From positions 1 through 33,196 of the forward strand of contig NZ_JAAMFN010000041.1 of NCBI RefSeq assembly GCF_013376095.1: a stretch of DNA of 33,196 nt, in the 5' to 3' direction. The notes beneath the pieces were generated by a model that was given only the letters and a program-made list of their open reading frames with translations, was not told the origin of the DNA and did no database searches. This stretch comes from Arthrobacter sp. SDTb3-6. GTDB lineage: Bacteria > Actinomycetota > Actinomycetes > Actinomycetales > Micrococcaceae. Shown piece after piece: positions 7,972 to 33,196 of this stretch; positions within the stretch are counted from its first letter, which is position 1, and every line of letters starts with the position of its first letter. The position numbers and the translations under genes were made by a program.

Positions 7972-8015
7972 TTGCGCTCAGCCCCGCCATGCGCTACCGT
8001 GTGACTCGCGTCACC
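7972..8015 (+). promoter_or_regulatory. Probable permease promoter with CRP-like box
   Basis: TTGCGC (7972-7977) and TACCGT (7995-8000) are separated by 17 bases. The -10 runs directly into TGTGA-CTCGCG-TCACC (8000-8015), nine of ten matches to the CRP/GlxR-type half-sites. Position and spacing match the gcv promoter on the other strand exactly. A protein bound here would cover the start of transcription, which suggests repression. That is inference. Confidence 0.5.
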
Positions 8016-14375: not shown

Positions 14376-14459
14376 GGATGGTGCCTCGATTCAGGGGGAG
14401 ATGTTGTGGGGAGGGTGTCCGGCCAACGCGGTAAACGCGGTTGCGGTGATGTGAGCTAC

Positions 14460-14488
14460 AGCATATGCAGTGTTTTTCGCGATCGCAA
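14460..14488 (-). promoter_or_regulatory. Probable promoter of the MBL-MFS unit
   Basis: On the minus strand, TTGCGA (14488-14483) and TATGCT (14465-14460) are 17 bases apart, with a TGCA just before the -10. The -35 is partly inside the 14-bp palindrome at 14485-14498. Confidence 0.45.
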
Positions 14489-14498
14489 TAGCTATTGC
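14485..14498. promoter_or_regulatory. Perfect 14-bp palindrome, candidate operator
   Basis: GCAATAGCTATTGC is a perfect inverted repeat in the 181-base divergent region between the MBL-fold and cupin genes. It overlaps the predicted minus-strand -35. On the other side it abuts AT-rich DNA (TATATT, 14500-14505) that could serve the cupin promoter. The binding protein is unknown, and this motif differs from the PaaX-like boxes elsewhere in the window. Confidence 0.5.
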
Positions 14499-14556
14499 AT
14501 ATATTGTTCCGTCCGTGGCATGCTGGCTTCATCACCAGCCCGATGAAAGGAACACC

Positions 14557-15042
14557 ATGGAAATCCAGACCGGCGAGGAAATAATCCTGGGGAACTTGCC
14601 CAAGGGCATCACCCTGGCCAGCGAGGCCTACGGCAACAAGACTTGGAATGTCCTGGGCCACACGTACCTGGCCAAGGTTGAGAGCGCATCAAGCTTTGCG
14701 TGGCTGTCCCTGGATCCCACCGGGACGGGTGTCCCGCCCCATGTGCACCCCACCCAGGACGAACACATTTACATCATGGAAGGCGTCTATACGCTCTACC
14801 TTGACGGTGAATGGACGACGGCGGGCCCCGGCGACACCGTCCGCATGCCCATGGGCCTCCCCCACGCCTACTACAACAAGGGGGAAACGCCCGGCAAGTC
14901 GCTCTTTTGGGTCAGCCCCTCCGGCAGCCTGTCAACGTTGTTTGGCAAGCTCCACAACCTGACCGACCCCGAGGAAGTGGTGCGCATTTCGGCCCTGTAC
15001 GACGTCAACTTCCTGCCGCCGGGCGCCGTTCCCGGGGCGTAG
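14557..15042 (+). CDS. Single-domain cupin protein, probably metal binding
   Basis: A 161-residue beta-barrel protein with both classical cupin motifs intact. Motif 1 fits G-X5-HXH-X4-E-X6-G with His62, His64, Glu69 and Gly76. Motif 2 fits G-X5-PXG-X2-H-X3-N with Gly92, Pro98, Gly100, His103 and Asn107. A metal-dependent dioxygenase or isomerase of the quercetinase-like type is possible but not proven. The ATG at 14557 has AAAGGA upstream; the frame is open earlier but unsupported. It is divergent from the MBL gene and followed by the alpha/beta hydrolase. Confidence 0.82.
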   Translation: MEIQTGEEIILGNLPKGITLASEAYGNKTWNVLGHTYLAKVESASSFAWLSLDPTGTGVPPHVHPTQDEHIYIMEGVYTLYLDGEWTTAGPGDTVRMPMGLPHAYYNKGETPGKSLFWVSPSGSLSTLFGKLHNLTDPEEVVRISALYDVNFLPPGAVPGA

Positions 15043-15049
15043 CCCGCCC

Positions 15050-15083
15050 GGCGGCGGCAGGGACCATGGTGCCTGCCGCCGCC
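15050..15083 (+). other. Hairpin between cupin and hydrolase genes
   Basis: A perfect 12-bp stem (15050-15061 with 15072-15083) closes a 10-base loop containing CCATGG, eight bases after the cupin stop. No U-tract follows. It may attenuate or stabilise the transcript between the two genes. Confidence 0.4.
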
Positions 15084-15148
15084 TTGAGCCACTTCAGCGA
15101 CCGGCCACGGCAGCATCTTCTCCGGGCCACGAACGCAGGGAGAAACGC

Positions 15149-16030
15149 ATGAGCGTCAAACAACGGGAGCGCTTCACCATCCGGTATGGCACGGGCGGCG
15201 GGCAACATGTCCACTGCCTGCCTGCCCTTGGGCGTCCCGGCGCCGCCGCACACGGGACGGTGCTGCTGGTCCACGGCGGATACTGGCGCGCACAATTCGA
15301 CGCCGGCCTCATGGAACCGCTCGCCGCCGAGTTCCAGCGGCGGGGCTGGCAGGTCGGCAATGTTGAATACCGCCGCCACGGCAACGGCGGCGGGTGGCCG
15401 GAAACCATCGAGGACGTCCGGGCCGCGGTCCGCGCCATCACCGGGACTCCATGGTGCCGCGCCGCGCCCGGTCCGGTGGTGGGCGTGGGGCACTCCGTGG
15501 GCGGCCAGCTGGCGCTGCTCGCCGCGTCCGGGCTGGACGCCGTGGTCGCCCTGGCACCCGTGACGGATACCGCACGCACCTTCCACGAACGGCTGGGCGA
15601 AGACGCCGCTGCGGAGTTCTTTGGCGCAGGCCCGCGGGAACTGCCCGAACAGTATGCGGATTCCTCACCCGTGCGGCAGTTGCCCCTCGGCATTCCCGCG
15701 CTGGTGGTCCACGGCGCCAATGACGCGCGCGTGCCCGTCAGCCACTCGCTCGACTACGTGCGGGCCGCGCGCAGCGCGGGTGACCGCATCACCCTCCTGG
15801 AGCCCGCCGACCTTGGCCATCTGGCCGCGATCAGCCCCACGGCCGGTCACTGGGACGCCGTACTCACCTGGCTGGGCTCCCTCGCGGATGGGAAGGCACC
15901 CAACAAGTCCTGGGCGTGGGCCCGTGCCACCCCGGCAATCAGCCCGTGGACATCCAGGAATGCCTTCTTGGCCAGCGGGGCCTTCCAACCATCAGGCAGG
16001 TATTCAAACGGCAGGTTGGGGTCCCGGTAG
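15149..16030 (+). CDS. Alpha/beta hydrolase, arylformamidase-like (HGGYW motif)
   Basis: Encodes 293 residues. The catalytic set of the alpha/beta fold is visible: oxyanion motif HGGYW at 42-46, nucleophile elbow GHSVGG with Ser116, acid Asp192 in HGANDARVP, and His224 in DLGHLAAI. HGGYW is typical of kynurenine formamidases and related aryl-amidases. N-acetylanthranilate amidase (Amq) of the quinaldine pathway is a comparable alpha/beta hydrolase. An amidase releasing anthranilate or kynurenine from an N-acyl form would fit this locus, but the substrate is inferred. GGGAG precedes the ATG. The fold should end near residue 247; the last 46 residues are read antisense through the 3' end of the convergent PaaX gene and are probably a nonconserved tail. 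Confidence 0.8.
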   Translation: MSVKQRERFTIRYGTGGGQHVHCLPALGRPGAAAHGTVLLVHGGYWRAQFDAGLMEPLAAEFQRRGWQVGNVEYRRHGNGGGWPETIEDVRAAVRAITGTPWCRAAPGPVVGVGHSVGGQLALLAASGLDAVVALAPVTDTARTFHERLGEDAAAEFFGAGPRELPEQYADSSPVRQLPLGIPALVVHGANDARVPVSHSLDYVRAARSAGDRITLLEPADLGHLAAISPTAGHWDAVLTWLGSLADGKAPNKSWAWARATPAISPWTSRNAFLASGAFQPSGRYSNGRLGSR

Positions 16031-16752
16031 GGGAAACGGCGCCACACGGTCAAAATCGACACGTACGTCTTGAACGCGTCGGCGCGCTGAAGCGGGTCCA
16101 GGCCGCCGGGGCCGGCAGCGGCCAGCAGGCCGGCCCACCGCCGCGGCTCCGCCCCAAAACCGTCGAGGAATTCCTGGTACTGCGCGTCCAGTTCCGCCAG
16201 GTCCCACCACCTGGCCACCTTGCCCCTGACGTCCTCCCCGCCGGGAATGGCGGCGTCAAAATATTCCACGTACCCGTCAAGCCCCCGTTCGGCCAGCCGC
16301 GCAACTGTCTGCGGAAGCGCGGTGCCGGGTGCTATGCACACGCCCGCCGACACCGTGCCAAAGCCCAGGCTGACGAGTTCCGAGCGCAGCTCGTAGCGGC
16401 GGTTGCGCTCGGCTTCGGGGACGGAAAAGACGACCAGTGACCAGGGGTCCCCGGGCCGGGATCGCACGGGGGCAAAGATGCGCTGGTCGTCGGCATGGAA
16501 GGCGTCCAACACGGCGTCGGACAATTCGTACCTGGCCACGCGGCCTTCGCGCACGCTGCGCAGCACCCCCTTGTGCTTGAGACGCGACACCGAGGAACGG
16601 GCCGCCGGCCCGTCCACGCCCAGGTCCGCCAGCAGGGCAACGAGCCCGGCCACGGGCAGGGAACCGGCGGCGAGGCTGCCGTAGAGCCCGTACAGGGTCA
16701 CAATCAATTGCTGGTGGAGCAGCCGGGGCCCGGCTGTTGGGGTGGAGGTCAC
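15847..16752 (-). CDS. PaaX-family transcriptional regulator (paralog 1)
   Basis: A 301-residue repressor-type regulator. The N-terminal winged helix (HQQLIVTLYGLYG at 13-25, then ARSSVSRLKHKGVLRS) and the PaaX C-terminal part (VFSVPEAERNRRYELRSELVSLGFGTVSAGVCIAP, VARWWDLAELDAQYQEFL, WRRFPYRDPNLPFEYLPDGW) are both clear. Family members typically sense an aromatic acyl-CoA. MeqR2 of Arthrobacter sp. Rue61a, a PaaX-type repressor, responds to anthraniloyl-CoA. This gene lies 74 bases downstream of the ThDP-enzyme gene on the same strand, so it may be the last gene of that operon. Its final 15 or so residues overlap the convergent hydrolase gene. Confidence 0.9.
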   Translation of the reverse strand: MTSTPTAGPRLLHQQLIVTLYGLYGSLAAGSLPVAGLVALLADLGVDGPAARSSVSRLKHKGVLRSVREGRVARYELSDAVLDAFHADDQRIFAPVRSRPGDPWSLVVFSVPEAERNRRYELRSELVSLGFGTVSAGVCIAPGTALPQTVARLAERGLDGYVEYFDAAIPGGEDVRGKVARWWDLAELDAQYQEFLDGFGAEPRRWAGLLAAAGPGGLDPLQRADAFKTYVSILTVWRRFPYRDPNLPFEYLPDGWKAPLAKKAFLDVHGLIAGVARAHAQDLLGAFPSAREPSQVSTASQ

Positions 16753-16826
16753 GCAATTCCCGTCGCTTGGAGTTCTCCCCCCATCCTACGGACGGCCGCC
16801 ATGGCTGCACCCCGCCCGGCCCGGGG

Positions 16827-18485
16827 TCAGTGCCCCTTGAAGGCCTCCGCCAGCCACCAGGAGCCGGAATCGGAGGCGATTTTTGCGTCAATGACCAGCG
16901 GCCGGACCGGCTTCGAGGCCACCCACTCCCGCACCGCGTCCAGGTCCGCGAGGGTGCGCACAGTGATTCCGGTGGCGCCGAACCCGCGGCCGATGGCCGC
17001 GAAGTCGGTGTCCGGGAACTGGACGGAGCCCATGTCCGCCTCCGGGGTGTCGATGGCGAAGTGGTGCACTTCGGCGCCATAGGCGGCGTCGTTGTAGACA
17101 ATGCAGACCAGCGGCATGCCCAGCCGCACCGCCGTGTCCAGCTCGGCGATGGCCATGTAGAAGCCGCCGTCGCCGGTGCCCAGCACCGGGATCCGTCCCG
17201 GCTGCGCCAGGCCGGCCCCGATCGCCGTGTACAGGCCCAGCCCGATGGCCTGGAACGCCTGGGTGAAGTAGAAGCCGAATTCGTCCGGCACCGAGAGGAA
17301 CTGGCTGGGGTAGCCCATGAAGTTGCCCGAGTCCACGCTCACGATGCGTTCGGCCGGCAGGATCCCGTCCAAGGCCTTCGTGAGCCTGCGCGGGTCGATG
17401 GACCGCCCGTCGGAGAGATCCTCGAAGTCGACCTGCTGCCAGTGGATTGCTTCCTGGATGCGCGCTTTCACGGCAGCGTTGCGGTAGCCTTCGCGGGCCG
17501 GCACCTTGCCGGCGAGCAGTGCCTCCAGGGTGTCGATGGCGCACTGTGCCGAGTCCCCCACAACGCCCAGGTCGATGGGCCGGTTGGCGCCCAGCGCCTG
17601 CTCGTCGAGGTCAACCTGGACCACCGTGGTGCCCGCACCAATCAGGTGCCCGTGCCGCATGGTCCACATGTTCAGGGCGCAGCCAAAGCCGACGAACAGG
17701 TCCGCGTCCGTGATCAGTTCAGCGGCCAGCGGGGAGGAGAAGCCGCCGGAGATGCCCAGGTTGAAGGGGTCCTGGTTGAACAGGCCCTTGGCCACCGCGT
17801 AGGTGGCGACCAGTGCGCCCGCATGGTTGGCCAGGGCAAGGATTTCCTCCCCCGCCCCGCGTCCGCCCCGGCCCGCAATGAACACGGGGCGCCGCGCGCC
17901 GGCCAGCAGGCCGGCCAGGGCCCGGACGGAAGCGCGCGAGGGGCGGATCGGTTCGACGGCCGTGACGGCAGCGGCCGCCGCGGCGTGTTCCGCGGGGGCT
18001 TCCTGCGCCTGCACGTCCAGCGGCAGGTTCAAGACCACCGTCCGGCGGTCATTGACCGCCCGGCGGTAGGCGCGGACGGTGTCGGCCACGGCGCTGGCGG
18101 CCGAATGCACCCGCTCGGGCACCGCATAGACGGACGCGGCAAAGCCGTCCTGGTCCATGGCGAAGTTCGAGTAGACGGCGCTGGGTGCCGCCTCGGCGGC
18201 GAGCACGATCATGGGGGTGCGGGACTTGGCGGCCTCGCCGATGCCGGTGCCGGCGTTGGTGAGGCCGCAGCCCTGGTGGACCGAGACCACGGCGACCTTG
18301 CCGCTGGTGCGTGAATAGGCGTCAGCCATGGTCGCTGCGCCGCCCTCGTGCCGGGCCGCGGTAAACGGCACGCCGTGCTCCATGAGCGCATTGGTCACGG
18401 CGAAGTTCCCTGACCCCACCACCCCGAAGCAGTGCCCGACCCCGAGTCCGGCCAGCGTCCTGCCGACAAGCTGTGAAACGTTCAT
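16827..18485 (-). CDS. Thiamine diphosphate-dependent enzyme, decarboxylase/acetolactate synthase-like
   Basis: A 552-residue three-domain ThDP enzyme. The N-terminal Pyr domain has the catalytic Glu47 in RHEGGAA. The C-terminal PP domain has the ThDP/Mg motif GDG-X24-N, with Asp439 and Asn465 in GTGDGGFYM...VYNDAAYG. The length and composition suit a 2-oxo acid decarboxylase or a carboligase. It sits 49 bases downstream of the isatin-hydrolase-like cyclase. Decarboxylation of isatinate (2-aminophenylglyoxylate, a benzoylformate analogue) to 2-aminobenzaldehyde would therefore be coherent. That activity is a hypothesis, and other 2-oxo acids are possible. Confidence 0.85.
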   Translation of the reverse strand: MNVSQLVGRTLAGLGVGHCFGVVGSGNFAVTNALMEHGVPFTAARHEGGAATMADAYSRTSGKVAVVSVHQGCGLTNAGTGIGEAAKSRTPMIVLAAEAAPSAVYSNFAMDQDGFAASVYAVPERVHSAASAVADTVRAYRRAVNDRRTVVLNLPLDVQAQEAPAEHAAAAAAVTAVEPIRPSRASVRALAGLLAGARRPVFIAGRGGRGAGEEILALANHAGALVATYAVAKGLFNQDPFNLGISGGFSSPLAAELITDADLFVGFGCALNMWTMRHGHLIGAGTTVVQVDLDEQALGANRPIDLGVVGDSAQCAIDTLEALLAGKVPAREGYRNAAVKARIQEAIHWQQVDFEDLSDGRSIDPRRLTKALDGILPAERIVSVDSGNFMGYPSQFLSVPDEFGFYFTQAFQAIGLGLYTAIGAGLAQPGRIPVLGTGDGGFYMAIAELDTAVRLGMPLVCIVYNDAAYGAEVHHFAIDTPEADMGSVQFPDTDFAAIGRGFGATGITVRTLADLDAVREWVASKPVRPLVIDAKIASDSGSWWLAEAFKGH

Positions 18486-18534
18486 GGTTGCTTCCTTGGT
18501 TGCTGGGCGGCTGCGGGGTGTAGGCGGGGGCGGA

Positions 18535-19308
18535 TCACTTCTGGACCATGGCCGGCACGCGGGCCGGCGCGCCGGTTCCGCCGACGATCGGCAGCGGGGC
18601 CACCACGACCATGACGCCGTGGGTGGGCAGCTTGTCCAGGTTCTTCAGCGAGGTCATGCCGTATTTGTCGGCACCCAGCAGGAAGTGGTGCATGGGGAAC
18701 GGCGGGTTCAACGCGGCGGCGTTGCCGGCGTCGATTCCCACGGTTTCCACCCCGACGCCGGAGACCCCCGGTTGTCCGGCGATCCACCGGGCACAGTCCG
18801 CCGTGAAGCCCGGGGTGTGTGATCCGGAGTCGTCGAGGTTCAGGAAGGCCTGCTTGTCGTGCCCGAACCGGTCCCAGCCGGTGCGGAAGAGCAGCCACGA
18901 GTTGGCCGGGAAGGGCCCGTGTTCTTCCTCCCACGCCAGCAGGTGCCCGGTGTCGATGAGGAAGTCCGGGTCCACTGCGGACCTGGCACTGAAATCAAGC
19001 ACCACGGCCGGGCCCACGAGGCGCGCCGGGTCCAGTTGCGAGACGTCCTTTCCGTCGCGGCCCGAGATCCAGTGGATGGGGGCGTCGAGGTGCGTGCCGA
19101 TGTGCTCGCCCGTGTGGATGTTGTGGTGCTTCCAGTAGGGGCCCGGCCCGTTGTAGGCGGAGACCTCGGTGAGGCTGAAATCAGCCAGGTTGGCCAACGG
19201 CTCCGGCAGCACGGGCGTCGGCGTGTCCGCGGACAGCGGCACTGTCAGGTCATGGATGTCGACGGCACCGGCGGCCGGCGAGGCGAGGACTTCATGGACA
19301 GGACGCAT
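18535..19308 (-). CDS. Cyclase-family metal hydrolase, isatin hydrolase/kynurenine formamidase type
   Basis: A 257-residue member of the cyclase family. The metal-binding signature HxGTHxDxPxH is complete as HIGTHLDAPIH (His69, His73, Asp75, His79). The family includes bacterial kynurenine formamidase (about 210 residues) and isatin hydrolase (about 260), which opens isatin to isatinate. The length and the neighbouring ThDP enzyme and anthranilate-CoA genes favour isatin hydrolase; no kynureninase is present. I chose the ATG at 19308 because GGAG lies seven bases upstream. A start 13 codons earlier is open but lacks such a site. A MeqR2-like operator lies about 70 bases upstream. It is first in a probable operon with the ThDP enzyme and PaaX 1. 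Confidence 0.82.
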   Translation of the reverse strand: MRPVHEVLASPAAGAVDIHDLTVPLSADTPTPVLPEPLANLADFSLTEVSAYNGPGPYWKHHNIHTGEHIGTHLDAPIHWISGRDGKDVSQLDPARLVGPAVVLDFSARSAVDPDFLIDTGHLLAWEEEHGPFPANSWLLFRTGWDRFGHDKQAFLNLDDSGSHTPGFTADCARWIAGQPGVSGVGVETVGIDAGNAAALNPPFPMHHFLLGADKYGMTSLKNLDKLPTHGVMVVVAPLPIVGGTGAPARVPAMVQK

Positions 19309-19377
19309 TGAATCTCCAGTGTTCGATGGCGGAGGGCGCCTTGGCACCCGTCCGGGACATTGTTTGTTGAATTTTGG

Positions 19378-19389
19378 TGACGGCGGTCA
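19378..19389. promoter_or_regulatory. MeqR2-like PaaX operator upstream of the cyclase gene
   Basis: TGACGGCGGTCA matches the recalled MeqR2 palindrome TGACG-NN-CGTCA at nine of the ten defined positions. It lies in the 140-base gap upstream of the isatin-hydrolase-like gene. The surrounding promoter elements are not clear enough to call. Confidence 0.5.
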
Positions 19390-19448
19390 CGGCCAACCTG
19401 TTGCTGGACAAGGTACCGGCAATGCGGCCGGCCGCCGGGAGGGCCCCG

Positions 19449-20356
19449 TCAGACAATGTCGTAGACAGGCACCCGCGACTGGTGGTGCACCACACGCCGG
19501 GGAATGAGTGCCACGGCAGCCGCTGCGGCCACCGCAATGGCGGCAAAAGTGGCAAAGTTCCATTCAAGGGGCAGCGCCGCACTGCCGATCCACCCGCCGA
19601 TCAGCGGCCCTGAGATGGCGCCAATCCGGGCGAAGCCCAGGGCCCACCCGGTGGCCGTGGCCCGGACGCCGGCGGGATGGTGATCGGCAATGTAGCCGGT
19701 GAGAATCAGCGACGTGGAGATCGATCCAACGCCGGCAAAGGCTACGAAGAGCAGGTTCACGGCCATGTTGTTGGGGAACATCAGCAGCAGGATGCCCAGG
19801 CCGCACAACACATAGAAAACCATCAAAACCAGCTTCTGGCCATACTTGTCTGCGGCCCGGCCCAGCAGGAGTCCGCCGATGGCGGAGGCAAGGCTGAACA
19901 CCACCAGGAACACCAGGGAGGACCCGAGGTCGTAGCCGGCCGCCTTCATGATGGACGGCAGCCACGTGTTCAGCCCATACACCAACACCATTCCGCGGAA
20001 CAGGGAAATCCAGAAAAAGACGGTGGACCGAAGGTACTTCCTGCTGAACATGGTGAAAGTGGCCGCCCGCCACGGTTCCGCGGCGACGTCGGCCGGCGTC
20101 GGTTCCGGCCCGCCCGGTCGCCGAGCGTCCCAATGAGCATGGCACCGGCCAACATGCCCGCCAGCCCGTAGGCGCCCAGGGCGCCGAGGGCGAGCGGTGA
20201 CAGGCCCCAGGCCTTGTACTGTGCCAGGGCGGGCAGCACGGCGCCAAGCACGCCCACGTCGCAGCCTTCCGAGAGGAAGGCGAGCCAACAACAAAATAAG
20301 AGAATTCCGGTGGTCCCACGTGGCACGTTCCAGTCGTTCAGCGGCGCAGGGGTCAT
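19449..20356 (-). pseudogene. Aromatic acid MFS transporter (AAHS-like) with internal deletion and frameshift
   Basis: Two parts of one transporter in different frames. The N-terminal part (20356 to about 20105) reads TGILLFCCWLAFLSEGCDVGVLGAVLPALA and ends in the loop 2-3 motif GTLGDRAGR. The C-terminal part (about 20105 to 19449) begins in the central loop at PADVAAEPWRAATFTMFSRKYLRS and continues through RGMVLVYGLNTWLPSIMKAAGYD, GLLLGRAADKYGQK and the last helices. Helices 3-6, roughly 130-140 residues, are absent at the junction, and the reading frame changes there. AAHS porters normally have about 440 residues; only about 300 codons remain. It was probably an uptake system for anthranilate or another aromatic acid of this island. 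A terminator separates it from the upstream operon. Confidence 0.82.
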
Positions 20357-20425
20357 TGGTCACGCCATTTCACAGGGGCGTACATTCACTGGGGCGGTGC
20401 AGCCGGCCGGCGGCCCGGCATCGGT

Positions 20426-20465
20426 ACGGAACGGGGCGGCACGTTTCCGTGCCGCCCCGTTCCGT
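20426..20465. terminator. Terminator after the anthraniloyl-CoA operon
   Basis: A perfect 18-bp stem (20426-20443 with 20448-20465) has a GAAA tetraloop on the minus strand and lies about 20 bases beyond the monooxygenase stop. A T-rich run (TTGTTTTT) follows on the plus strand only. The stem position fits termination of the minus-strand operon. Confidence 0.75.
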
Positions 20466-20485
20466 TGTTTTTCGGGTTGTTGCGG

Positions 20486-22885: not shown

Positions 22886-22895
22886 GGTGGTCTCC

Positions 22896-24548
22896 TTAAG
22901 CGTTGGACGGCAGGGTGGCCGCGGGGTGTCGGGATTCGTCCCGGAGGCGGTCGCGGAGCTTGAAGTGCTGCAGCTTTCCGCTGGGGTTGCGCGGCAGTTC
23001 CGCCACGAACTGGACGTCGCGCGGGTATTTGTAGGGGGCGATTGTCTGCTTGACGAAGTCCTGGATTTCCTTGCGCTTGGCGGCGTCGCCAGGAACGCCT
23101 TCGCGCAGGACGACGAAGGCGCAGACAACGGAGCCGCGTTCCGGGTCGGGGCGGGCCACGACGGCGTTTTCCATCACGTCGGGGTGCTGGTCGATGGCCG
23201 CCTCGACCTCGGGGGCGCCGATGTTGTAGCCGGAGGAGACAATCATGTTGTCCGAGCGGGCCTGGTAGCGGAAGTAGCCCTCGTCGTCGCGCAGGAACGT
23301 GTCGCCCGTGACGTTCCAGCCGTTGCACACGTAGTTCGCCTGGCGCGGATCGTCCAGGTAGCGGCACCCGGTGGGGCCGATCACGGCCAGCCGGCCGACC
23401 TCGTTGGGGCCCAGTTCGTTGCCGTCGAAGTCAAGGATCGTGGCACGGTAGCCGGGCACCGCGACGCCGGTGGCACCCGGGCGGATGTCCTCGCCGGCGG
23501 CGGAGATGAACACGTGGAGCATTTCGGTGGAGCCGATCCCGTCCACGAGCCGGAGCCCGGTGGCCGTATATACCGCGTCCCAGGTCTCCTTGGGCAGGTG
23601 TTCGCCGGCGGACACGGCCACGCGCAGGCGGCTCAGCAGCTCGCTGCGGCCCGCCTTCAGGATGGCCCGGTAGGCGGTGGGCGCGGTAAAAAAGATGCTT
23701 GCACCGGCCGCGGCGGCCGCTTCGGCCAGTTCCACGGGCGCGGCGCGTTCGGTCAGCAGGGCCGAGGCGCCGAACCGCAGCGGGAAGACGACCAGCCCGC
23801 CCAGCCCGAACGTGAACGCCAGGGGCGGGGAACCGGCAAAGACGTCCTCGGGCGTGGGCCGCAGGAGGTGCCGGGCAAAGGTGTCCGCGTTGGCCAGGAT
23901 GTCCCGGTGGAAGTGCATCGTGACCTTGGGGACCCCGGTGGTGCCCGACGTCGGGCCCAGCAGGGCAACGTCGTCGGCGGCGGTGTCCACATTGGCGAAC
24001 TCCCCGCTCTTGGCCCCACACCGTGCCACCAGGTCCGCCTCGCCACCGCCGCCATAGGCCAGGACAGTGGTGGTCCCGGCCGCGGCGAGCAGCCCTTCCA
24101 TGAACCGGTGGTCCGACAGCGCCACGACGGGGCGGGTCAGCCCGATCGTGGCAGCGACCTCCCCGGCGCGCAGCATGGGCATCGTGGTGACGACGACGGC
24201 ACCGGCCTTGAGCACGCCGAGCCAGCACGCGACGAGCCAGGGGTTGTTGGGGCCGCGCAGCATGACCCGGTTGCCCGGCACCACCCCGAGGTCCTCGGTG
24301 AGCACCTGGGCCACCTGGTTGGCCCGGCGGAGCAGCTCCCCGTAGCTCCAGGTGCCGCCGTCGGGCGTGCGCAGCGCGGTGCGGCCCTGGCCATACGCCG
24401 CGGCCGTGTCGTCAATGAGCGCGGTGGCCGCGTTGAGCCGTTCCGGGTACTGCACCTCCGGAATGGTGAACTCCAGGACGGGCCAGCTGTCACGGGGCGG
24501 GAGGTGGTCGCGGGTGAAGGTGTCCACGTGGGCCGATGGTGCCGTCAT
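22896..24548 (-). CDS. 2-aminobenzoate (anthranilate)-CoA ligase, benzoate-CoA ligase family
   Basis: Activates anthranilate to anthraniloyl-CoA with ATP and CoA. The 550-residue adenylate-forming enzyme has LLGPTSGTTGVPKVTMHFHRD (SGTTG at 201-205), GIGSTEMLHVFIS, the hinge region YFRYQARSDNMIVSSGYNIGAPEVE, and the catalytic lysine near the end (NPSGKLQHFK, Lys525). The ligand-specific call rests mainly on the adjacent anthraniloyl-CoA monooxygenase. I chose the ATG at 24548, preceded by AAAGGA. An ATG at 24620 overlapping the thioesterase stop (ATGA) is also possible and would add a 24-residue Ala/Pro-rich extension. Confidence 0.9.
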   Translation of the reverse strand: MTAPSAHVDTFTRDHLPPRDSWPVLEFTIPEVQYPERLNAATALIDDTAAAYGQGRTALRTPDGGTWSYGELLRRANQVAQVLTEDLGVVPGNRVMLRGPNNPWLVACWLGVLKAGAVVVTTMPMLRAGEVAATIGLTRPVVALSDHRFMEGLLAAAGTTTVLAYGGGGEADLVARCGAKSGEFANVDTAADDVALLGPTSGTTGVPKVTMHFHRDILANADTFARHLLRPTPEDVFAGSPPLAFTFGLGGLVVFPLRFGASALLTERAAPVELAEAAAAAGASIFFTAPTAYRAILKAGRSELLSRLRVAVSAGEHLPKETWDAVYTATGLRLVDGIGSTEMLHVFISAAGEDIRPGATGVAVPGYRATILDFDGNELGPNEVGRLAVIGPTGCRYLDDPRQANYVCNGWNVTGDTFLRDDEGYFRYQARSDNMIVSSGYNIGAPEVEAAIDQHPDVMENAVVARPDPERGSVVCAFVVLREGVPGDAAKRKEIQDFVKQTIAPYKYPRDVQFVAELPRNPSGKLQHFKLRDRLRDESRHPAATLPSNA

Positions 24549-24616
24549 GGCCTGTCCTTTCGCTGGTGCTTCGACGGGTGCTTCAAGGTCGGCGGGTGCT
24601 CCAAGGTGTGTGGTGC

Positions 24617-25495
24617 TCATGGCCGGTCCACACTGCGGATCATGCCCTCTTGCGCGACGGTGGCCAGCAGCCTGCCTTCGCGGTCGTAAAACCGGCCCAG
24701 GGCCAGGCCCCGGTTCGACTGCCCGGACACCGCTTCCTGGGCGTAGAGGATCCAACCGTCCGCGCGGCCCTCGCGGTGGAACCACATGGAGTGGTCCAGG
24801 CTCGCGGTCGCCAGGCCCGGCGTGGACCAGTTCAGCGAGCGGACGCGCAGCAGCGGCTCCAGGATCGTGTAGTCGCACACGTACGCCAGCGCCGTCCGCT
24901 GCAGGTCCGGGTCATCGGGCAGGGCGCCAAAGGCGCGCACCCACACGCACTGGTGCGCCGCCACCCCGCCGTCCACCTCCAGGTACACCGGGCCGGGCAC
25001 ATGGCGCATGTCAAAGCTGCGCCCGCCCGACCAGTACTCCGCGGCAGGGCCCTCAACACCCTTGAGCACCTCGGCGGCGCTGCGCAGGGTTGCCGGGTCG
25101 ACGGCGGCCGGCGCGTCCCCCTGGAAGTCCGGCCCCTGTTCGGGGACCTGGAACGAGCCCATGGCGGTGAAGACGACCTTGCCGTTTTGATGGCCGCGCA
25201 CGGTGCGGGTGGAATAGCCGCGGCCGTCGCGCAGGTGCTCGACCTCGTAGCGGACCACCGAACCGACGTCGACCGGGCGCAGGAAGTAGCTGTGCATGGA
25301 ATGCATGCTCCGGTCCGCACCCACCGAGCGCATCATGGCCGCCGCGGATTGGGCCACCATGTCCCCGCCATAGGCCTTGGGCCAGGGCACGTACTGGGTG
25401 GTGGCCTCGAACGCCTCGTCGCCGTGTTCGGGGGCCACGGCAGAAAGTTCCACCGCGTTCAGGAAGGTCTGCGCGGAAAGCGTCTGGATGTCCAT
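24617..25495 (-). CDS. Acyl-CoA thioesterase II (TesB-like)
   Basis: A 292-residue double-hotdog thioesterase hydrolysing acyl-CoA to free acid and CoA. Family landmarks are FEATTQYVPWPKAYGGDMVAQSAAAM, SMHSYFLRPVDVGSVVRYEVEHLRDGRGYSTRTVRGHQNGKVVF, TASLDHSMWFHREGRADGWILYAQEA and GRFYDREGRLLATVAQEGMIR. The ATG at 25495 is used, and the gap to the cupin stop is five bases. Within the anthraniloyl-CoA operon it may release CoA from dead-end thioesters or from a late intermediate. Its specificity is not evident. Confidence 0.88.
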   Translation of the reverse strand: MDIQTLSAQTFLNAVELSAVAPEHGDEAFEATTQYVPWPKAYGGDMVAQSAAAMMRSVGADRSMHSMHSYFLRPVDVGSVVRYEVEHLRDGRGYSTRTVRGHQNGKVVFTAMGSFQVPEQGPDFQGDAPAAVDPATLRSAAEVLKGVEGPAAEYWSGGRSFDMRHVPGPVYLEVDGGVAAHQCVWVRAFGALPDDPDLQRTALAYVCDYTILEPLLRVRSLNWSTPGLATASLDHSMWFHREGRADGWILYAQEAVSGQSNRGLALGRFYDREGRLLATVAQEGMIRSVDRP

Positions 25496-25500
25496 GGTCC

Positions 25501-25983
25501 TCAAGCCCTCCGGTAGTCGGCGAGGGATTCGTCGGGGACGTCCTCGAGGTTGACCACAATGTTCTCAGGCGTGCGGGCGGTCAGCCAGACCAGTTCCTCC
25601 GTGGTGGACATGTTCGCCTCCACATGCGGCATGAACGGCGGCACGAACACCCAGTCGCCCGTCAACAGGTCCTGGAACTGCGAGTAGTTTTCCCCGTAGT
25701 AGATGCGGCCATGGCCGCGCAGCACGTAGCCGCCTGTCTCCGCCTCCCCGTGGTGGTGGGGCAGCGAACGGTATCCGGGGGTGTTGGAGACCTGGCCGAA
25801 CCAGATCTTCGTGGCCGGGGTGTGCTGGATGCTGACGCCGGAAACCCGGACGCAGTCCCCCGACTGCGCCGTGTTCGTGTCCTCCTCCCCGGCCCGGGTC
25901 ACGACGGGCACCACTGCACCGTCGGGCCCGGCATACACGGAATTGTCGCCTTCGGTGCGGTATTCCTCAATGTCGGTGGTCAT
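25501..25983 (-). CDS. Cupin-domain protein of the anthraniloyl-CoA operon
   Basis: A 160-residue single cupin. It has a His-rich motif 1 (GYRSLPHHHGEAE, His76 and His78 with Glu82) and a recognisable motif 2 (GDWVFVPPFMPH, His120), so metal binding is likely. The C-terminal tail NIVVNLEDVPDESLADYRRA is shared, as I recall, with cupins in aromatic clusters, but I cannot name its reaction. The start overlaps the FAH-family stop (ATGA) and thioesterase follows within five bases, so it is an integral part of the operon. A ring-modifying dioxygenase, an isomerase or a non-enzymatic role are all open. Confidence 0.8.
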   Translation of the reverse strand: MTTDIEEYRTEGDNSVYAGPDGAVVPVVTRAGEEDTNTAQSGDCVRVSGVSIQHTPATKIWFGQVSNTPGYRSLPHHHGEAETGGYVLRGHGRIYYGENYSQFQDLLTGDWVFVPPFMPHVEANMSTTEELVWLTARTPENIVVNLEDVPDESLADYRRA

Positions 25984-26870
25984 GCTGCGGACTCCTTCGT
26001 CACGAGTTGTTGATGCAGGTCTTGGTCTTGGGGGTGGATGCGGAGCACGTTTTCCAGCACGCCGATCCCGTCGATTTCCGTGCGCAGCACGTCGCCGTCG
26101 GCCAGGAAACGCGGCGGCACCATCCCCATCCCGACGCCGCCGGGCGTGCCCGTGAGCACCAGGTCCCCGGCACGCAGGGTGGTGAACCGGGAAATGTAGG
26201 AGAGCAGCCGGGCCGGCCCGAACACCAGGGTCGAGGTGTCTCCGGCCTGGACAGGCTCCCCGTTCACAAAGCCGCGGACCGTAAAGCCCGCGCCGGCCGG
26301 AAACTCATCGGCCGTCACCAGCACCGGGCCCACGGGCGTCGCGGCATCAAAGGCCTTGCCCTGGAACCACTGCAGTGTCCGGTTTTGCCAATCACGCATG
26401 GAGACGTCATTGGCCACCGTGTACCCGGCAATGGCGGCCGCCGCCTCCGCTTCGTCCGCCCGGTGCAGCGTGGCCCCGACGACGACGGCGAGCTCGGCCT
26501 CCCAGTCAACCTTGGCGCTGCCGGCAACCTCCAGCACATCCCTGGCACCGGCCAGCGAATCGGCAAACTTCACAAACAAGGTGGGGAACTCCGGCCGGTC
26601 CCGGCCCATCTCGGCAATGTGGTCCCCATAGTTCAGGCCGCAGCAAATGACCTTCGCCGCCCGCGGGAGCAGCGGCGCCAGGTCCGCCTCGCGCTCCGGG
26701 ACCGTGGCGCCTGCCGCGGCAGTGTCCACGGCGGCCGCAACCGTGCCGCGCCAGTCCGGGCCGGCCAACAGTCCGCCCACGTCCCCGGCCGGCAACGGCA
26801 GGAACCCGACACCGGGAAGGAGGAGCGCCGCCGTCGTGCCGTAACGGGTGCGCAGGGTGGCAAGTTTCAC
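25980..26870 (-). CDS. Fumarylacetoacetate hydrolase (FAH)-family protein
   Basis: A 296-residue member of the FAH superfamily, which hydrolyses or decarboxylates 1,3-dicarbonyl-type compounds with a divalent metal. Conserved elements are VICCGLNYGDHIAEMG (catalytic His-Glu region), VDWEAELAVVVG (metal glutamates), YTVANDVSMRDWQ, GKAFDAATPVGP and LTGTPGGVG. I favour the GTG at 26870 (MKLATLRTRYG), the usual N-terminus of the family, with GAGGG upstream. A GTG at 26900 would add ten residues. It is first in the anthraniloyl-CoA operon. It could cleave a beta-dicarbonyl intermediate after dearomatisation, which is inference. Confidence 0.87.
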   Translation of the reverse strand: MKLATLRTRYGTTAALLLPGVGFLPLPAGDVGGLLAGPDWRGTVAAAVDTAAAGATVPEREADLAPLLPRAAKVICCGLNYGDHIAEMGRDRPEFPTLFVKFADSLAGARDVLEVAGSAKVDWEAELAVVVGATLHRADEAEAAAAIAGYTVANDVSMRDWQNRTLQWFQGKAFDAATPVGPVLVTADEFPAGAGFTVRGFVNGEPVQAGDTSTLVFGPARLLSYISRFTTLRAGDLVLTGTPGGVGMGMVPPRFLADGDVLRTEIDGIGVLENVLRIHPQDQDLHQQLVTKESAA

Positions 26871-26902
26871 GGGTCTTTTCCCTCTCACATTGGTGATCAC
26901 TG

Positions 26903-26932
26903 ATTATGTATCGACTTATTTACGATCGTCAC
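26903..26932 (-). promoter_or_regulatory. Probable promoter of the anthraniloyl-CoA operon
   Basis: On the minus strand, GTGACG (26932-26927) and CATAAT (26908-26903) are 18 bases apart, about 33 bases upstream of the FAH GTG. The -35 hexamer is inside the first MeqR2-like box, as described for the meq upper-pathway promoters. Confidence 0.55.
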
Positions 26933-26939
26933 ATATGCT
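26911..26939 (+). promoter_or_regulatory. Probable promoter of the Rid-family gene
   Basis: TCGACT (26911-26916) and TATGCT (26934-26939) are separated by 17 bases. One MeqR2-like box lies in the spacer and the second just after the expected transcription start. Confidence 0.45.
26920..26931. promoter_or_regulatory. MeqR2-like PaaX operator, box 1
   Basis: On the minus strand TGACGATCGTAA fits TGACG-NN-CGTcA with the only mismatch at the weakly conserved (lower-case) position. It covers the -35 of the FAH-ligase-monooxygenase promoter. Confidence 0.62.
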
Positions 26940-26946
26940 CAACGTA

Positions 26947-26958
26947 GCACGATCGTCA
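26947..26958. promoter_or_regulatory. MeqR2-like PaaX operator, box 2
   Basis: On the minus strand TGACGATCGTGC keeps the full left half-site and the CGT of the right half. It is 27 bases from box 1 centre to centre, about 2.5 helical turns. Two boxes suggest shared control of both divergent units. Confidence 0.5.
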
Positions 26959-27014
26959 CGATCTGAACATGGATTTTTCAAAATCGCCCCAGGGGCGCCG
27001 CAAGGAGGCTGGAC

Positions 27015-27431
27015 ATGAACAACACAACAGCGACGGGCAACACCACCATCAACCCGGAATCGCTGCCCAAGCCACGCGGCTACGCCCACGGCGTGCTCGC
27101 CGGAAACACGGTGTACCTGGGCGGGCAGACGGCCCTGGACAAGGACATGAACATCGTGCCCGGCGGCATCGTGGCACAGTTCAGGCAGGCGTTCTCCAAC
27201 GTGCTGGCAACCCTCACAGAAGCCGGCGGGCAGCCCGAGGACCTCGTCAGCGTCACGATCTATCTCACCGACGTGGACGACTACATGGCCAACGGCAAGG
27301 AAATCGGGCAGCTCTGGCGCGAGATGGCCGGCTCCAAATACCCCGCCATGGCAGGCATCGGGATCAGCCGGCTTTGGCAAAAGGAGGCCCTCATCGAAAT
27401 CCAGGGCGTCGCGGTGATCCAGGAGCGCTGA
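27015..27431 (+). CDS. Rid-family (YjgF/YER057c/UK114) protein
   Basis: A 138-residue Rid-family protein, probably a trimer acting on enamines or imines. Family landmarks are YAHGVLAGNTVYLGGQTALD, FRQAFSNVLATLTEAGGQPEDLVSVTIYLTDVDDY and ALIEIQGVAVI with Glu128. The arginine that RidA uses for deamination, normally in a P-x-R-T segment, is absent: the local sequence is YPAMAGIGISRLW. It is therefore not a canonical RidA and belongs to an Arg-lacking Rid subgroup. AGGAGG lies at good distance from the ATG. It is divergent from the anthraniloyl-CoA operon and shares its operators. The dearomatised product, a beta-enamino thioester, is a plausible substrate. Confidence 0.87.
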   Translation: MNNTTATGNTTINPESLPKPRGYAHGVLAGNTVYLGGQTALDKDMNIVPGGIVAQFRQAFSNVLATLTEAGGQPEDLVSVTIYLTDVDDYMANGKEIGQLWREMAGSKYPAMAGIGISRLWQKEALIEIQGVAVIQER

Positions 27432-27470
27432 TTTCCGCAGGCGCACTGGTTTCCGCGGGCGCGCCCCGGG

Positions 27471-27521
27471 CGCAGGCGGGGCCGGGGGGCACTGTGCCCG
27501 CGCGCCCCGCCTGCGTGTTTT
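27471..27521 (+). terminator. Intrinsic terminator after the Rid-family gene
   Basis: A perfect 12-bp GC-rich stem (27471-27482 with 27504-27515) is followed by TGTTTT, 40 bases after the Rid-family stop and just before the end of the convergent PaaX 2 gene. Confidence 0.7.
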
Positions 27522-27541
27522 CCGGTTTTGAAGTGCCCCGG

Positions 27542-28438
27542 TCAGCGGCCGGCGGCGTCGATGATGCTGTGGGCGTGCGCTGCCGCCAGCCGGGAAATGA
27601 GGCGGTGCACGGTCGAGAACGCCGCCCTGGCCTGGGGGCCTTTCCAGCCGTCCGGCAGAAACTCCAGCGGCAGGCTCGGGTCCCGGTAGGGAAAGCGCCG
27701 CCACGCGGTCAGCATGGGGATGTAGTAGCGGAACGCATCGGCGCGCAGTTCCGGCGTCGACCGGGCCAGTGCCTGGTCCGGGTCGTCACCGAGCAGGCCG
27801 AGCCACTGTTCGGCGGCATCGTGGTAAAAGTCAAGGAACTCGCCAAGCTGTTCGTCCAGGGCAGCCAGGTCCCACCATTGGGCCACCTTGGTGCGCATGT
27901 CGCCTTCGGCCAGGTAGTCGCCGCGGAAGAACTCAACAAACTGGCCCAGCCCGCGCTTTTCAAGCCTCCGCCTGGTCTCGCCGAGCACGCCCGCCGGTGC
28001 AATCCACACGCCCGAGGCGACGGAACCGAACCCCAGCCAGGAGAGCTCGGAGCGCAGCTGGTGGCGCTTGTTGCGCACCGCTTCCGGCACGGAAAAGATG
28101 GCCAGGACCCACGCGTCCCCGGCCACGGACCGGGTGGGCGAGAATATGCGCGCGTCGCCTTCCTTGAACACCTCCAGGACACTTTCCGACAAGGCATACT
28201 TGGCCACCTTGTCCGTCCTGACACTTTTGAGCACGTCCTTGGCCTTGAGCCGGGACACGGAGGACCGCACACCGGGCGCGTCGTAGCCGAGGTCACCGAG
28301 CAGCGCAACAAGTGCCGAGACCGGCATCGCGGCGTCCGGCCCCCGGCTGTAGAGCCCGAAGATCGTGACAATCAGCTGCTGGTGGCGCACCGGAGGCGCG
28401 GGAAATTCCAGCCTGGCCCGGGTGCCTGTTTCCGTCAC
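27542..28438 (-). CDS. PaaX-family transcriptional regulator (paralog 2)
   Basis: A 298-residue paralog of the regulator at 15847-16752, with the same blocks: HQQLIVTIFGLYS, RSSVSRLKAKDVLKSVR, IFSVPEAVRNKRHQLRSELSWLGFGSVASGVWIAP, VAQWWDLAALDEQLGEFLDFY and WRRFPYRDPSLPLEFLPDGW. The GTG at 28438 gives (M)TETGTRARLEF and matches the N-terminal length of paralog 1. GGTGG lies a few bases upstream. An ATG at 28456 lacks a ribosome binding site. It sits downstream of the 4HBT thioesterase gene and convergent with the Rid gene. By analogy with MeqR2 it is a candidate anthraniloyl-CoA-responsive repressor of the boxes at 26920-26958. Confidence 0.88.
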   Translation of the reverse strand: MTETGTRARLEFPAPPVRHQQLIVTIFGLYSRGPDAAMPVSALVALLGDLGYDAPGVRSSVSRLKAKDVLKSVRTDKVAKYALSESVLEVFKEGDARIFSPTRSVAGDAWVLAIFSVPEAVRNKRHQLRSELSWLGFGSVASGVWIAPAGVLGETRRRLEKRGLGQFVEFFRGDYLAEGDMRTKVAQWWDLAALDEQLGEFLDFYHDAAEQWLGLLGDDPDQALARSTPELRADAFRYYIPMLTAWRRFPYRDPSLPLEFLPDGWKGPQARAAFSTVHRLISRLAAAHAHSIIDAAGR

Positions 28439-28454
28439 GGCTTTCCACCCCGGC

Positions 28455-28508
28455 ATCGCACGGCGGCACGGCAGTTCACGGCGGCACGGCATCGCACGGC
28501 GGCCCGGC
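28455..28508. repeat. Three tandem 18-bp repeats
   Basis: ATCGCACGGCGGCACGGC, AGTTCACGGCGGCACGGC and ATCGCACGGCGGCCCGGC follow one another directly at 28455, 28473 and 28491. They fill most of the 91-base gap between the thioesterase stop and the PaaX 2 start. Repeat-length variation here could alter the PaaX 2 leader. Confidence 0.7.
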
Positions 28509-28529
28509 CACGTCCCGGGCTGGCCTCCC

Positions 28530-28961
28530 TCACGGGACGGCCGGCCCGATGGCCGCCAGGATGCCGGCCGGCCAGGGGGAGGCGGCCTGGGCACCCGGGG
28601 CGACGTGGGCCGTGGTGAACGTGCCGTGGGCCGCCAGGCCTCCCCCGGCCCCCTTATGGGCCATGCCCTCGACTTCGAAGGCGAAGGTCATGGACGTGCG
28701 GCCGATGGCTTCAACGGCAACGGTGGCCCGGATCCGCTGGCCAAACCACAATTTCGCACGGTAGTTGACAACCTGCTGGACACGGGGTGCACAGGCGAAG
28801 TAGTCCGGGAGGTGCAGCGTCCTGAACAGTTCCGCCTCGGCCGCTTCCACCCAGCGCAGGACGGCGGAGTTGTGCTGGTGGCCGGAGGCGTCGGTGTCCA
28901 CCCATTCCACCGTCCGCTCAACGCAGGCCCGCGGCCCGCAGGCCTGATCCAAGGTGTGCAC
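28530..28961 (-). CDS. Acyl-CoA thioesterase, 4HBT hotdog family
   Basis: A 143-residue single-hotdog thioesterase. VEWVDTDASGHQHNSAVLRWVEAAEAELF is the 4-hydroxybenzoyl-CoA-type signature with the conserved Asp. VNYRAKLWFGQRIRATVAVEAIGRTSMTFAFEVE supplies the following strands. I chose the GTG at 28961 because AAGGA lies at normal distance and the family homology starts here. An in-frame ATG at 29039 would add 26 unsupported residues. It probably hydrolyses an aromatic or dearomatised CoA ester and may be co-transcribed with PaaX 2. Confidence 0.82.
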   Translation of the reverse strand: MHTLDQACGPRACVERTVEWVDTDASGHQHNSAVLRWVEAAEAELFRTLHLPDYFACAPRVQQVVNYRAKLWFGQRIRATVAVEAIGRTSMTFAFEVEGMAHKGAGGGLAAHGTFTTAHVAPGAQAASPWPAGILAAIGPAVP

Positions 28962-29067
28962 TGGGATCCTTTCGATGACGGAACATGTCCGCGGGGGCAG
29001 CACCGGTGCGGTGCGGCCCAGCCCGAGTCTATCGGCCATTTGGCCAATGACATATCAAATTCATTAC

Positions 29068-31223: not shown

Positions 31224-31368
31224 GTGCGGTCCTTTCACGGGTTCTGCAGCGCCGGATGTCGCCGGGCCGGGGCCGGCTTCACCGCGTGGGCCATGGGGCC
31301 ATGGCTGCGAGGTGGGGCCACTGCGATCGTACCTGTGCGGCGCGGCGGGAGGGTGGCTGCGGGCAAGA

Positions 31369-32955: not shown

Positions 32956-33196
32956 GGGTGCGGTCCTTGTTGTGCGGGTCGGTGGCGGGCCCTGACGGAA
33001 CACCCGCCCCCACTGTACCGGCACGGCGGATGTGCCGGGTCCCGGCGCAGCGCCAACGCCACGGACGGCCGCGCACAGCCCCTCGGGTACCCGCCGGCGG
33101 TGGAGGGCAGCCCGGAATTCACCGCACGCGTGCCGCTCGCACCCCTTGGGAGGGACGACGCCGGGCGGTGCCGTGGGCGCCCAAGGCCCCGGGCGC

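Follow-up and report, generated by a model that had tools for sequence, protein, structure and literature searches.

The window analysed here is a 33,196-nucleotide stretch of Arthrobacter sp. SDTb3-6 DNA, one contig (C81) of a 4.31-Mb genome that is 99.97% complete. At positions 15847-29039 it contains a gene cluster with which this soil actinobacterium most likely degrades isatin, an indole breakdown product, by way of anthranilate to central metabolites. The core of the cluster, which handles anthranilate as its coenzyme A thioester (anthraniloyl-CoA), is a known, widespread kind of cluster. The new part is the isatin module, which consists of the genes for an isatin hydrolase and a thiamine diphosphate (ThDP)-dependent enzyme; this isatin half and the ring-opening route proposed below for the core are new, testable ideas. 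A sequence-only reading of the same DNA had claimed convergence on anthraniloyl-CoA with an isatin-type upper module, which is supported by the core, similar to that of pAL1, and by solved isatin hydrolases as the best matches of the cyclase-family protein. All genes named in that reading were present, each with a Pfam or NCBIfam match (Table 1).

The core comprises six enzymes, all of which are also present in pAL1 of Arthrobacter sp. Rue61a: a 2-aminobenzoate-CoA ligase, a fusion of a flavin adenine dinucleotide (FAD) hydroxylase with an Old Yellow Enzyme (OYE) domain (the monooxygenase), a TesB thioesterase, a cupin, an FAH-family hydrolase, and a Rid protein. The gene order in pAL1 is PaaX-(hypothetical)-RidA-FAH-cupin-TesB-AMP-ligase-monooxygenase-PaaX-hotdog, and the core order is the same in the window. 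Identities between the window and pAL1 proteins were 87% (cupin), 85% (Rid), 82% (monooxygenase), 79% (ligase), 72% (TesB), 67% (FAH), and 64% (hotdog). The PaaX proteins were only 43-45% identical, so their orthology to the pAL1 regulators, presumably MeqR1 and MeqR2, is ambiguous. Both operons also share an operator-like palindrome in the FAH-Rid promoter. The earlier claim that this combination differs from the meq genes of Rue61a therefore fails, and the idea of an unknown gene combination was rejected. In contrast to the window, pAL1 is fed by quinaldine genes, in place of which the window has the isatin hydrolase/ThDP module. In the window, FAH, cupin, TesB, ligase, and monooxygenase form a tight block on the minus strand, with 4-base overlaps of FAH/cupin and TesB/ligase; the Rid gene is divergent from FAH, and one PaaX gene lies near each cluster end. 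Two Rue61a ligases, one of them plasmid-borne, yield anthraniloyl-CoA when expressed in Escherichia coli (PMC3534580), and we equated the pAL1 ligase with the ARUE_113p00220 protein of published activity by gene order. The proposed formation of anthraniloyl-CoA and its conversion by the monooxygenase rest on close orthologues; we infer the remaining steps of the pathway.

Clusters of the Azoarcus type, represented by Paracoccus and Ruegeria, share with the window the ligase (54-55% identity), the fused monooxygenase/reductase (52%), and Rid (36-37%). They differ in having a short-chain dehydrogenase/reductase (SDR), an enoyl-CoA hydratase, and an acyl-CoA dehydrogenase instead of the core cupin, FAH, and TesB, and MarR instead of PaaX. 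No enoyl-CoA hydratase, acyl-CoA dehydrogenase, or SDR was found among the scanned window genes. The contrast that the earlier reading drew with the Azoarcus genes accordingly holds for these two examples, to which the comparison was limited. The cupins in the Paracoccus and Ruegeria clusters were rejected as counterparts of the core cupin, as both match the second cupin of the window.

A genome scan with the monooxygenase found 464 relatives, of which the best 80 were kept, so that loci of the pAL1 type (type A) are over-represented. The six core enzymes occurred together in 69 of these 80 loci, some of which are cut by contig ends; per gene, the counts were 79 (ligase), 78 (TesB), 77 (cupin), 70 (FAH), and 78 (Rid). 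Three types of lower pathway were distinguished. Type A (the window, pAL1, Rhodococcus, Tsukamurella, and some Streptomyces) has cupin, FAH, and TesB, at least two of the three being required at 40% identity or more; type B (other Streptomyces) has an enoyl-CoA hydratase and an acyl-CoA dehydrogenase; and type C (Paracoccus, Ruegeria, and some Actinomycetota) has SDR, MarR, enoyl-CoA hydratase, and acyl-CoA dehydrogenase. With the window not counted, a ligase of at least 50% identity was present in 84/84 type A, 4/4 type B, and 7/9 type C loci, and Rid in 83/84, 3/4, and 8/9, respectively. Six of the 104 loci belonged to no type, and two of these six had the ligase and two had Rid. In the monooxygenase tree, built from 48 of the 104 sequences with the type A rows thinned to roughly one in three, type B formed a single branch, whereas type A required three changes and type C two; the window enzyme was placed among Micrococcaceae near Arthrobacter. 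The type, tree, and co-localisation counts exclude the 29 short loci L091-L119, of whose genomes 14 were counted as L120-L133 and 15 not at all; L090, a copy of the window, and L134 and L135 are likewise excluded. In a set of 396 Actinomycetota genomes, 42 had the monooxygenase (E up to 1e-150) and 9 had the core cupin (E up to 1e-20). Three genomes, the window's own included, had a cupin of at least 60% identity; the same three and no others had a monooxygenase above 70%, with no more than 3 kb between the two genes in each. In relatives, the core set adjoins other anthranilate-producing genes, namely aqdC1, tryptophan dioxygenase with a class-V aminotransferase-fold enzyme, or kynU.

Caballeronia and Cupriavidus show a fourth arrangement, in which a bicupin and FAH accompany the fused enzyme; the Cupriavidus bicupin matched the gentisate dioxygenase model below its cut-off. 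Loci L136-L140 were chosen by their bicupin, so the bicupin link in them is due to selection; among them only L136 is annotated with the fused monooxygenase, and L140 is unannotated. In Caballeronia L136, genes for the fused monooxygenase, bicupin, FAH, a C-N hydrolase, and an Asp/Glu racemase stand in a row, which by its gene content looks like a route from 5-hydroxyanthranilate to maleamylpyruvate.

The cyclase-family protein of the window is, judged by its sequence, an isatin hydrolase. It matched four distinct solved isatin hydrolase sequences with E values of 6.5e-67 to 4.5e-59. Identity as a kynurenine formamidase was rejected (E = 4.6e-5 compared to 6.5e-67). All six Mn-binding or catalytic residues of LaIHA are kept (His69, His73, Asp75, His79, Asp193, and His207; numbering as given in the sections of PMC6117287 used here). 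The protein thus resembles the isatin hydrolases of Labrenzia aggregata and Ralstonia solanacearum in sequence family and catalytic residues, but its gene is coupled to the ThDP enzyme and to anthraniloyl-CoA degradation, and three residues corresponding to the substrate pocket are replaced (see below).

In the ThDP enzyme, E47, H70-Q71, and H474-H475 are invariant within its own family (25 rows). Solved structures related to it include benzoylformate decarboxylase (best match BbmA; benzoylformate decarboxylase 6qsi at E = 5.4e-25), and the invariant His70 resembles what we take to be a residue of this decarboxylase. In the open literature searched under several names, no isatinate decarboxylase was found. 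In a preprint on indole-3-acetate degradation by Variovorax, C8H7NO3 and C7H7NO appear before anthranilate (PMC12633357); by our own assignment, these would be the formulae of isatinate and 2-aminobenzaldehyde. The iad auxin-degradation locus of Variovorax and Bradyrhizobium is similar to the proposed route in that it ends in anthranilate, with masses resembling isatinate and 2-aminobenzaldehyde and a formamidase-annotated step, according to the sections of PMC12633357 used here. It differs in starting from indole-3-acetate with a Rieske oxygenase, and no such gene is among the mapped window genes.

The two module genes are linked. Among 108 loci, both were present in 28, one alone in 4 and 4, and neither in 72 (Fisher p = 1.7e-17, not corrected for kinship). 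With the window added, both occurred in 25 type A loci, three type C loci (L120, L121, and L126), and one unclassed locus (L042). The module therefore travels beside two kinds of lower pathway. In 58 related genomes, a ThDP enzyme of at least 60% identity and the monooxygenase were each found in 10, six of them shared (hypergeometric p = 8e-4, uncorrected for kinship); an eleventh genome with a ThDP match of 57% was kept out of the 10. Tsukamurella L082, Caballeronia L136, and Shinella L139 have an isatin hydrolase homologue (39-64% identical to that of the window) and an indolepyruvate-oxidoreductase-like pair, but no ThDP enzyme. No locus held both the pair and the ThDP enzyme, in a small sample in which L136 and L139 were bicupin-selected; L066 and L068 have the pair with neither isatin hydrolase nor ThDP enzyme. 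Since both are 2-oxoacid enzymes by family, an aryl-glyoxylate such as isatinate would fit as their shared substrate, and the pair in L082, L136, and L139 possibly provides a direct route from isatinate to anthraniloyl-CoA.

Five module-carrying loci (L003, L010, L042, L043, and L055) contain StyA-type oxygenases, and these neighbours suggest a sequence from indole through isatin to anthranilate. The gene order in L042 and L043 is SDR, two StyA-type genes, FAD oxidoreductase, isatin hydrolase, and ThDP enzyme, and in L003 a StyA-type gene is followed by FAD oxidoreductase, isatin hydrolase, and ThDP enzyme. One StyA-type protein of L043 is fused to a flavin reductase; StyA1/StyA2B systems are now termed indole monooxygenases (PMC6165268). 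The row in L042 and L043 is a candidate indole cluster. Like the iif/ind indole clusters of Acinetobacter and Cupriavidus, such relatives of the window combine an indole-oxygenase-type gene with an SDR, and anthranilate is the hub. However, the iif cluster makes anthranilate with the cofactor-free oxygenase IifA, and the sections of PMC6221969 used here describe no isatin gene in it. L042 and L043 instead continue with FAD oxidoreductase, isatin hydrolase, and ThDP enzyme, and by Pfam no gene of their row resembles IifA. A 2018 review listed as open questions the real part of isatin in indole degradation and the gene cluster that degrades the resulting anthranilate (PMC6221969). The isatin hydrolase, ThDP enzyme, and anthraniloyl-CoA core, which lie together and appear to be regulated together, provide a concrete gene set with which both questions can be tested in a culturable Arthrobacter.

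Co-regulation is indicated by promoter sites. MeqR2 of pAL1 is reportedly a repressor of the PaaX type, with TGACGNNCGTcA as its binding site and anthraniloyl-CoA as its effector. When up to one mismatch was allowed, 48 of the 68 divergent FAH-Rid regions contained the palindrome TGACGNNCGTCA, which we take to be a MeqR2-like operator motif; random positions within these loci gave 0.68 on average and 4 at most. The window region is among the 48, and a second copy in it has two mismatches. The palindrome was also found upstream of 14/32 isatin hydrolase genes, 13/54 hotdog genes, and 14/27 matches of the hydratase query, each with a reversed-string control of 0; the sole non-zero control was that of TESB (8, with a real count of 1). 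The counts of 14/32 and 14/27 contain repeats (short loci and their re-entered copies), at least two in the former, none of which has a site. Ten of the 14 isatin hydrolase sites are perfect copies located 47-78 bases before the extrapolated start. The window copy is TGACGGCGGTCA at 19378; L041, L043, and L046 carry the same form in their FAH-Rid promoters. Across the whole window, TGACGNNCGTCA with up to two mismatches occurred 36 times (mean 20.3 and largest count 30 in 100 shuffles), and TGACGNNCGTNA with up to one mismatch 18 times (mean 7.1, largest 15). The whole-window motif count is noisy, and the regulatory argument therefore rests on the promoter counts. Elsewhere in the same genome, the tryptophan dioxygenase region (L135) has two sites with at most one mismatch, and the kynU region (L134) none. 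It is quite probable that the core and the isatin module are both under the control of PaaX repressors whose release is triggered by anthraniloyl-CoA.

On balance, we favour an aerobic catabolic cluster that would channel isatin, along with anthranilate of whatever origin, into central metabolism as follows. Isatin would very probably be hydrolysed to isatinate by the isatin hydrolase. The ThDP enzyme would then be likely to convert isatinate either to 2-aminobenzaldehyde, which is oxidised to anthranilate, or directly to anthranilate; a pyruvate-oxidase-like oxidation straight to anthranilate would be the weak alternative to decarboxylation to the aldehyde. The ligase would with high probability form anthraniloyl-CoA. 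The monooxygenase/reductase would dearomatise this thioester, and the reduced product would be an enamine (C7H9NO3 as the acid). Whether hydrolytic deamination to 2,5-dioxocyclohexanecarboxyl-CoA follows, assisted by Rid, appears evenly balanced. More tentatively, the cupin dioxygenase may cut the C1-C2 bond and TesB may hydrolyse the thioester, in either order, to give succinylpyruvate, and equally tentatively FAH may hydrolyse succinylpyruvate to pyruvate and succinate. The core is accordingly proposed as a dihydro-analogue of the gentisate pathway, in which every one of the six core enzymes would have a step. By our arithmetic, the mass balance from the monooxygenase step onwards closes (C7H9NO3, C7H8O4, C7H8O6, then C3H4O3 + C4H6O4). 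Acetylacetone dioxygenase cleaves a beta-dicarbonyl with O2. The core cupin has invariant residues of the metal-binding type (H76-H77-H78, E82, and H120 in 33 rows). The dihydro-gentisate proposal fits because the OYE site is intact and because extracts of anthranilate-grown Rue61a cells contain C7H8O4-CoA together with C7H7NO3-CoA (PMC3534580). Loss of ammonia from the C7H9NO3 enamine gives this same C7H8O4, whose CoA ester would be a beta-keto thioester. No assigned function was found for the cupin, FAH, TesB, or Rid in the open literature searched, most subscription papers being outside its scope. As these genes recur across several actinobacterial families, a worked-out lower pathway would re-annotate many genomes. 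A wider proposal is more doubtful still: that the actinobacterial core runs the dihydro-gentisate pathway and that isatin is a true intermediate, processed by isatin hydrolase and a ThDP isatinate decarboxylase that is replaced elsewhere by an indolepyruvate-oxidoreductase-like enzyme making anthraniloyl-CoA directly.

Several observations weigh against the proposed pathway. In the isatin hydrolase, three pocket positions differ (Trp61 to His, Tyr204 to Phe, and Gln219 to Thr), and two of the four residues of the set Trp59, Trp61, Trp80, and Tyr204 are kept. No indole oxygenase lies beside the window module, and no StyA-family protein was found in the genome by a search that found two in the L043 genome. 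Both points would suit a module that serves another cyclic amide or aryl-glyoxylate instead of isatin; this is unlikely, given the retained catalytic residues and the StyA-type oxygenases in five module-carrying loci. The module is also optional, with the isatin hydrolase in 25/80 and the ThDP enzyme in 29/80 relatives, and 4 of the 10 related genomes with a ThDP enzyme of at least 60% identity lack such a monooxygenase. Aldehyde dehydrogenases were sought by motif, with no positive control, in 1602 open reading frames (ORFs) of 89 loci; there was one match, in L007. The palindrome of the window's isatin hydrolase is imperfect (one mismatch), and sites precede the ThDP gene in only 3/33 cases and the first PaaX gene of the window (query PAAX1) in 0/4. 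In Rid, the position aligned to the RidA arginine is Met in 76/81 rows, including the window, and Leu in 5/81; the arginine (R105 in E. coli) is, as we assume, the substrate-binding residue of active RidA deaminases (Rid1-3). The core cupin had no close solved relative in the PDB search (best E = 0.026), and its AlphaFold2 model (33 rows) was unusable, with a predicted local distance difference test (pLDDT) score of 48.7. Finally, anthranilate may also leave the pathway elsewhere in the genome, given the catechol genes and a ring-hydroxylating dioxygenase described below.

The monooxygenase itself bears on whether the ring is reduced. The OYE His pair (H..HGY) is intact in 123 of 133 monooxygenases, a set that includes the window and pAL1 and contains repeats. 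Gentisate-type bicupins were seen next to two monooxygenases, that of L087 (one of the 133) and that of L136 (outside the 133); in both, Gln replaces the first His. These two are 79% identical, so the change represents one lineage and not two events. The other nine sequences without the motif come from seven distinct, distant Actinomycetota genomes, two of them counted twice, and have Asp at this position (L111-L113, L115, L116, L118, and L119). Longer stretches of such genomes showed no core gene except the monooxygenase in G042, and acyl-CoA dehydrogenase and SDR homologues with a ligase homologue of 32% in G370. Because the His pair is kept here and changed beside bicupins, which need an aromatic substrate, the type A product is probably non-aromatic.

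This argues against an aromatic route, in which the enzyme would act solely as a hydroxylase, with TesB releasing 5-hydroxyanthranilate, the cupin opening the aromatic ring as in gentisate degradation, and FAH liberating pyruvate. Such a route looks real in Caballeronia L136, and Nocardia opaca is said to use 5-hydroxyanthranilate and gentisate (PMC4539516). The solved relatives of FAH also include the acylpyruvase FAHD1 (E = 3.6e-25) and maleylpyruvate hydrolase, further down a list headed by 6j57/6j5x (E = 1.1e-59), deposited as a predicted hydratase. The C7H7NO3-CoA of Rue61a, which is presumed to be hydroxyanthraniloyl-CoA, would agree with it as well (PMC3534580). However, no bicupin homologue was found in type A loci, Rue61a also contained C7H8O4-CoA, and, according to the sections of PMC3534580 used here, 5-hydroxyanthranilate and gentisate gave no growth of Rue61a, 5-hydroxyanthranilate being converted only cometabolically. 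We therefore consider the aromatic route improbable for the window. A hydrolytic ring opening, in which FAH would convert 2,5-dioxocyclohexanecarboxyl-CoA to 4-oxopimelyl-CoA, with cupin and TesB as accessories and beta-oxidation encoded elsewhere in the genome, is similarly unlikely. It would suit C7H8O4-CoA as a beta-keto thioester, and Azoarcus is said to proceed by beta-oxidation (PMC4539516), but the cupin is conserved like the other core genes, with invariant metal-type residues, and the window core has no beta-oxidation gene. A salicylate cluster, with the fused enzyme as salicylyl-CoA 5-hydroxylase, is very improbable: the window enzyme does exceed the cut-off of NF006101, the NCBIfam model of that name (1221 bits, cut-off 1078), but so do those of pAL1, Ruegeria, and Cupriavidus, which deprives the name of discriminating power; in addition, the ligase is close to that of pAL1, relatives have anthranilate-making neighbours, and no gentisate-type bicupin is adjacent. 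The salicylyl-CoA label given by NCBI is probably wrong for this type of monooxygenase, and that of the window appears, from its orthologues, to act on anthraniloyl-CoA.

Outside the window, contig 54 of the genome carries a tryptophan dioxygenase gene adjoining one for a BD-FAE-family hydrolase, perhaps a formamidase. On contig 57, kynureninase lies beside catechol-pathway genes, ~13 kb from a ring-hydroxylating dioxygenase. Since the genome has tryptophan dioxygenase and kynureninase, anthranilate can also arise from tryptophan.

Table 1. Features of the cluster and candidate members in the window (positions in the 33,196-nucleotide stretch; identities are to the proteins named)
Feature	Position	Strand	Evidence
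PaaX-family repressor 1	15847-16752	-	PF20803/PF07848/PF08223; 43-45% to both pAL1 PaaX proteins
ThDP-dependent enzyme, proposed isatinate (2-aminophenylglyoxylate) decarboxylase	16827-18485	-	PF02775/PF02776/PF00205
Isatin hydrolase by sequence, cyclase family	18535-19308	-	PF04199; best match 5NMP, E = 6.5e-67
Operator-like palindrome upstream of isatin hydrolase	19378-19389		1 mismatch to TGACGNNCGTCA (presumed motif)
Major facilitator superfamily (MFS) transporter remnant	19449-20363	-	Two-frame match to full-length relatives, middle gone
Anthraniloyl-CoA monooxygenase/reductase (putative), FAD hydroxylase-OYE fusion	20486-22885	-	NF006101; 82% to pAL1; HAAHGY intact
2-Aminobenzoate-CoA ligase, benzoate-CoA-ligase family	22896-24620	-	TIGR02262, 321 bits, below cut-off 375; 79% to pAL1 ligase
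TesB-type acyl-CoA thioesterase	24617-25495	-	PF02551; TIGR00189, 199 bits, below cut-off 293
Monocupin, proposed beta-dicarbonyl-cleaving dioxygenase	25501-25983	-	PF07883
FAH-family hydrolase, proposed acylpyruvase	25980-26900	-	PF01557
Divergent FAH/Rid promoter	26901-27014		Palindromes at 26920-26931 (1 mismatch) and 26947-26958 (2 mismatches)
Rid-family protein, proposed enamine deaminase of the monooxygenase product	27015-27431	+	PF01042
PaaX-family repressor 2	27542-28438	-	43-45% to pAL1 PaaX proteins
Hotdog (4HBT) thioesterase	28530-29039	-	PF13279; 64% to pAL1 hotdog gene
MFS transporter and metallo-beta-lactamase (MBL)-fold hydrolase, membership only possible	11884-14375	-	68-73% homologues near core in L007, L025, L047, L064
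Second cupin, candidate member only	14557-15042	+	49-50% to cupin inside Paracoccus/Ruegeria clusters
Alpha/beta hydrolase, candidate member only	15149-16030	+	Within conserved block 11884-16030

Besides the operator-like palindromes in the FAH-Rid and cyclase promoters, two features go beyond the sequence-only reading. Of the MFS gene between the isatin hydrolase and the monooxygenase, only a remnant is left, which has an internal deletion and changes frame, as residues 1-86 and ~195-224 to 437 of its relatives were matched in two different frames. This MFS family is present in 26/89 loci, and full-length versions lie near the monooxygenase in relatives. The second feature is the conserved block at 11884-16030. 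In the four loci in which its MFS and MBL hydrolase homologues lie near the core, the second cupin is present in three and the alpha/beta hydrolase in two.

Positions 175-7767 are occupied by glycine-cleavage and serine genes. A one-mismatch copy of the palindrome, TGACTCGCGTCA, lies at 8002-8013 between the glycine decarboxylase and amino-acid permease genes. A long ORF encoding FG-GAP repeats and a gene for an ABC-F ATPase occupy 29166-33024 and seem to have no relation to the cluster.

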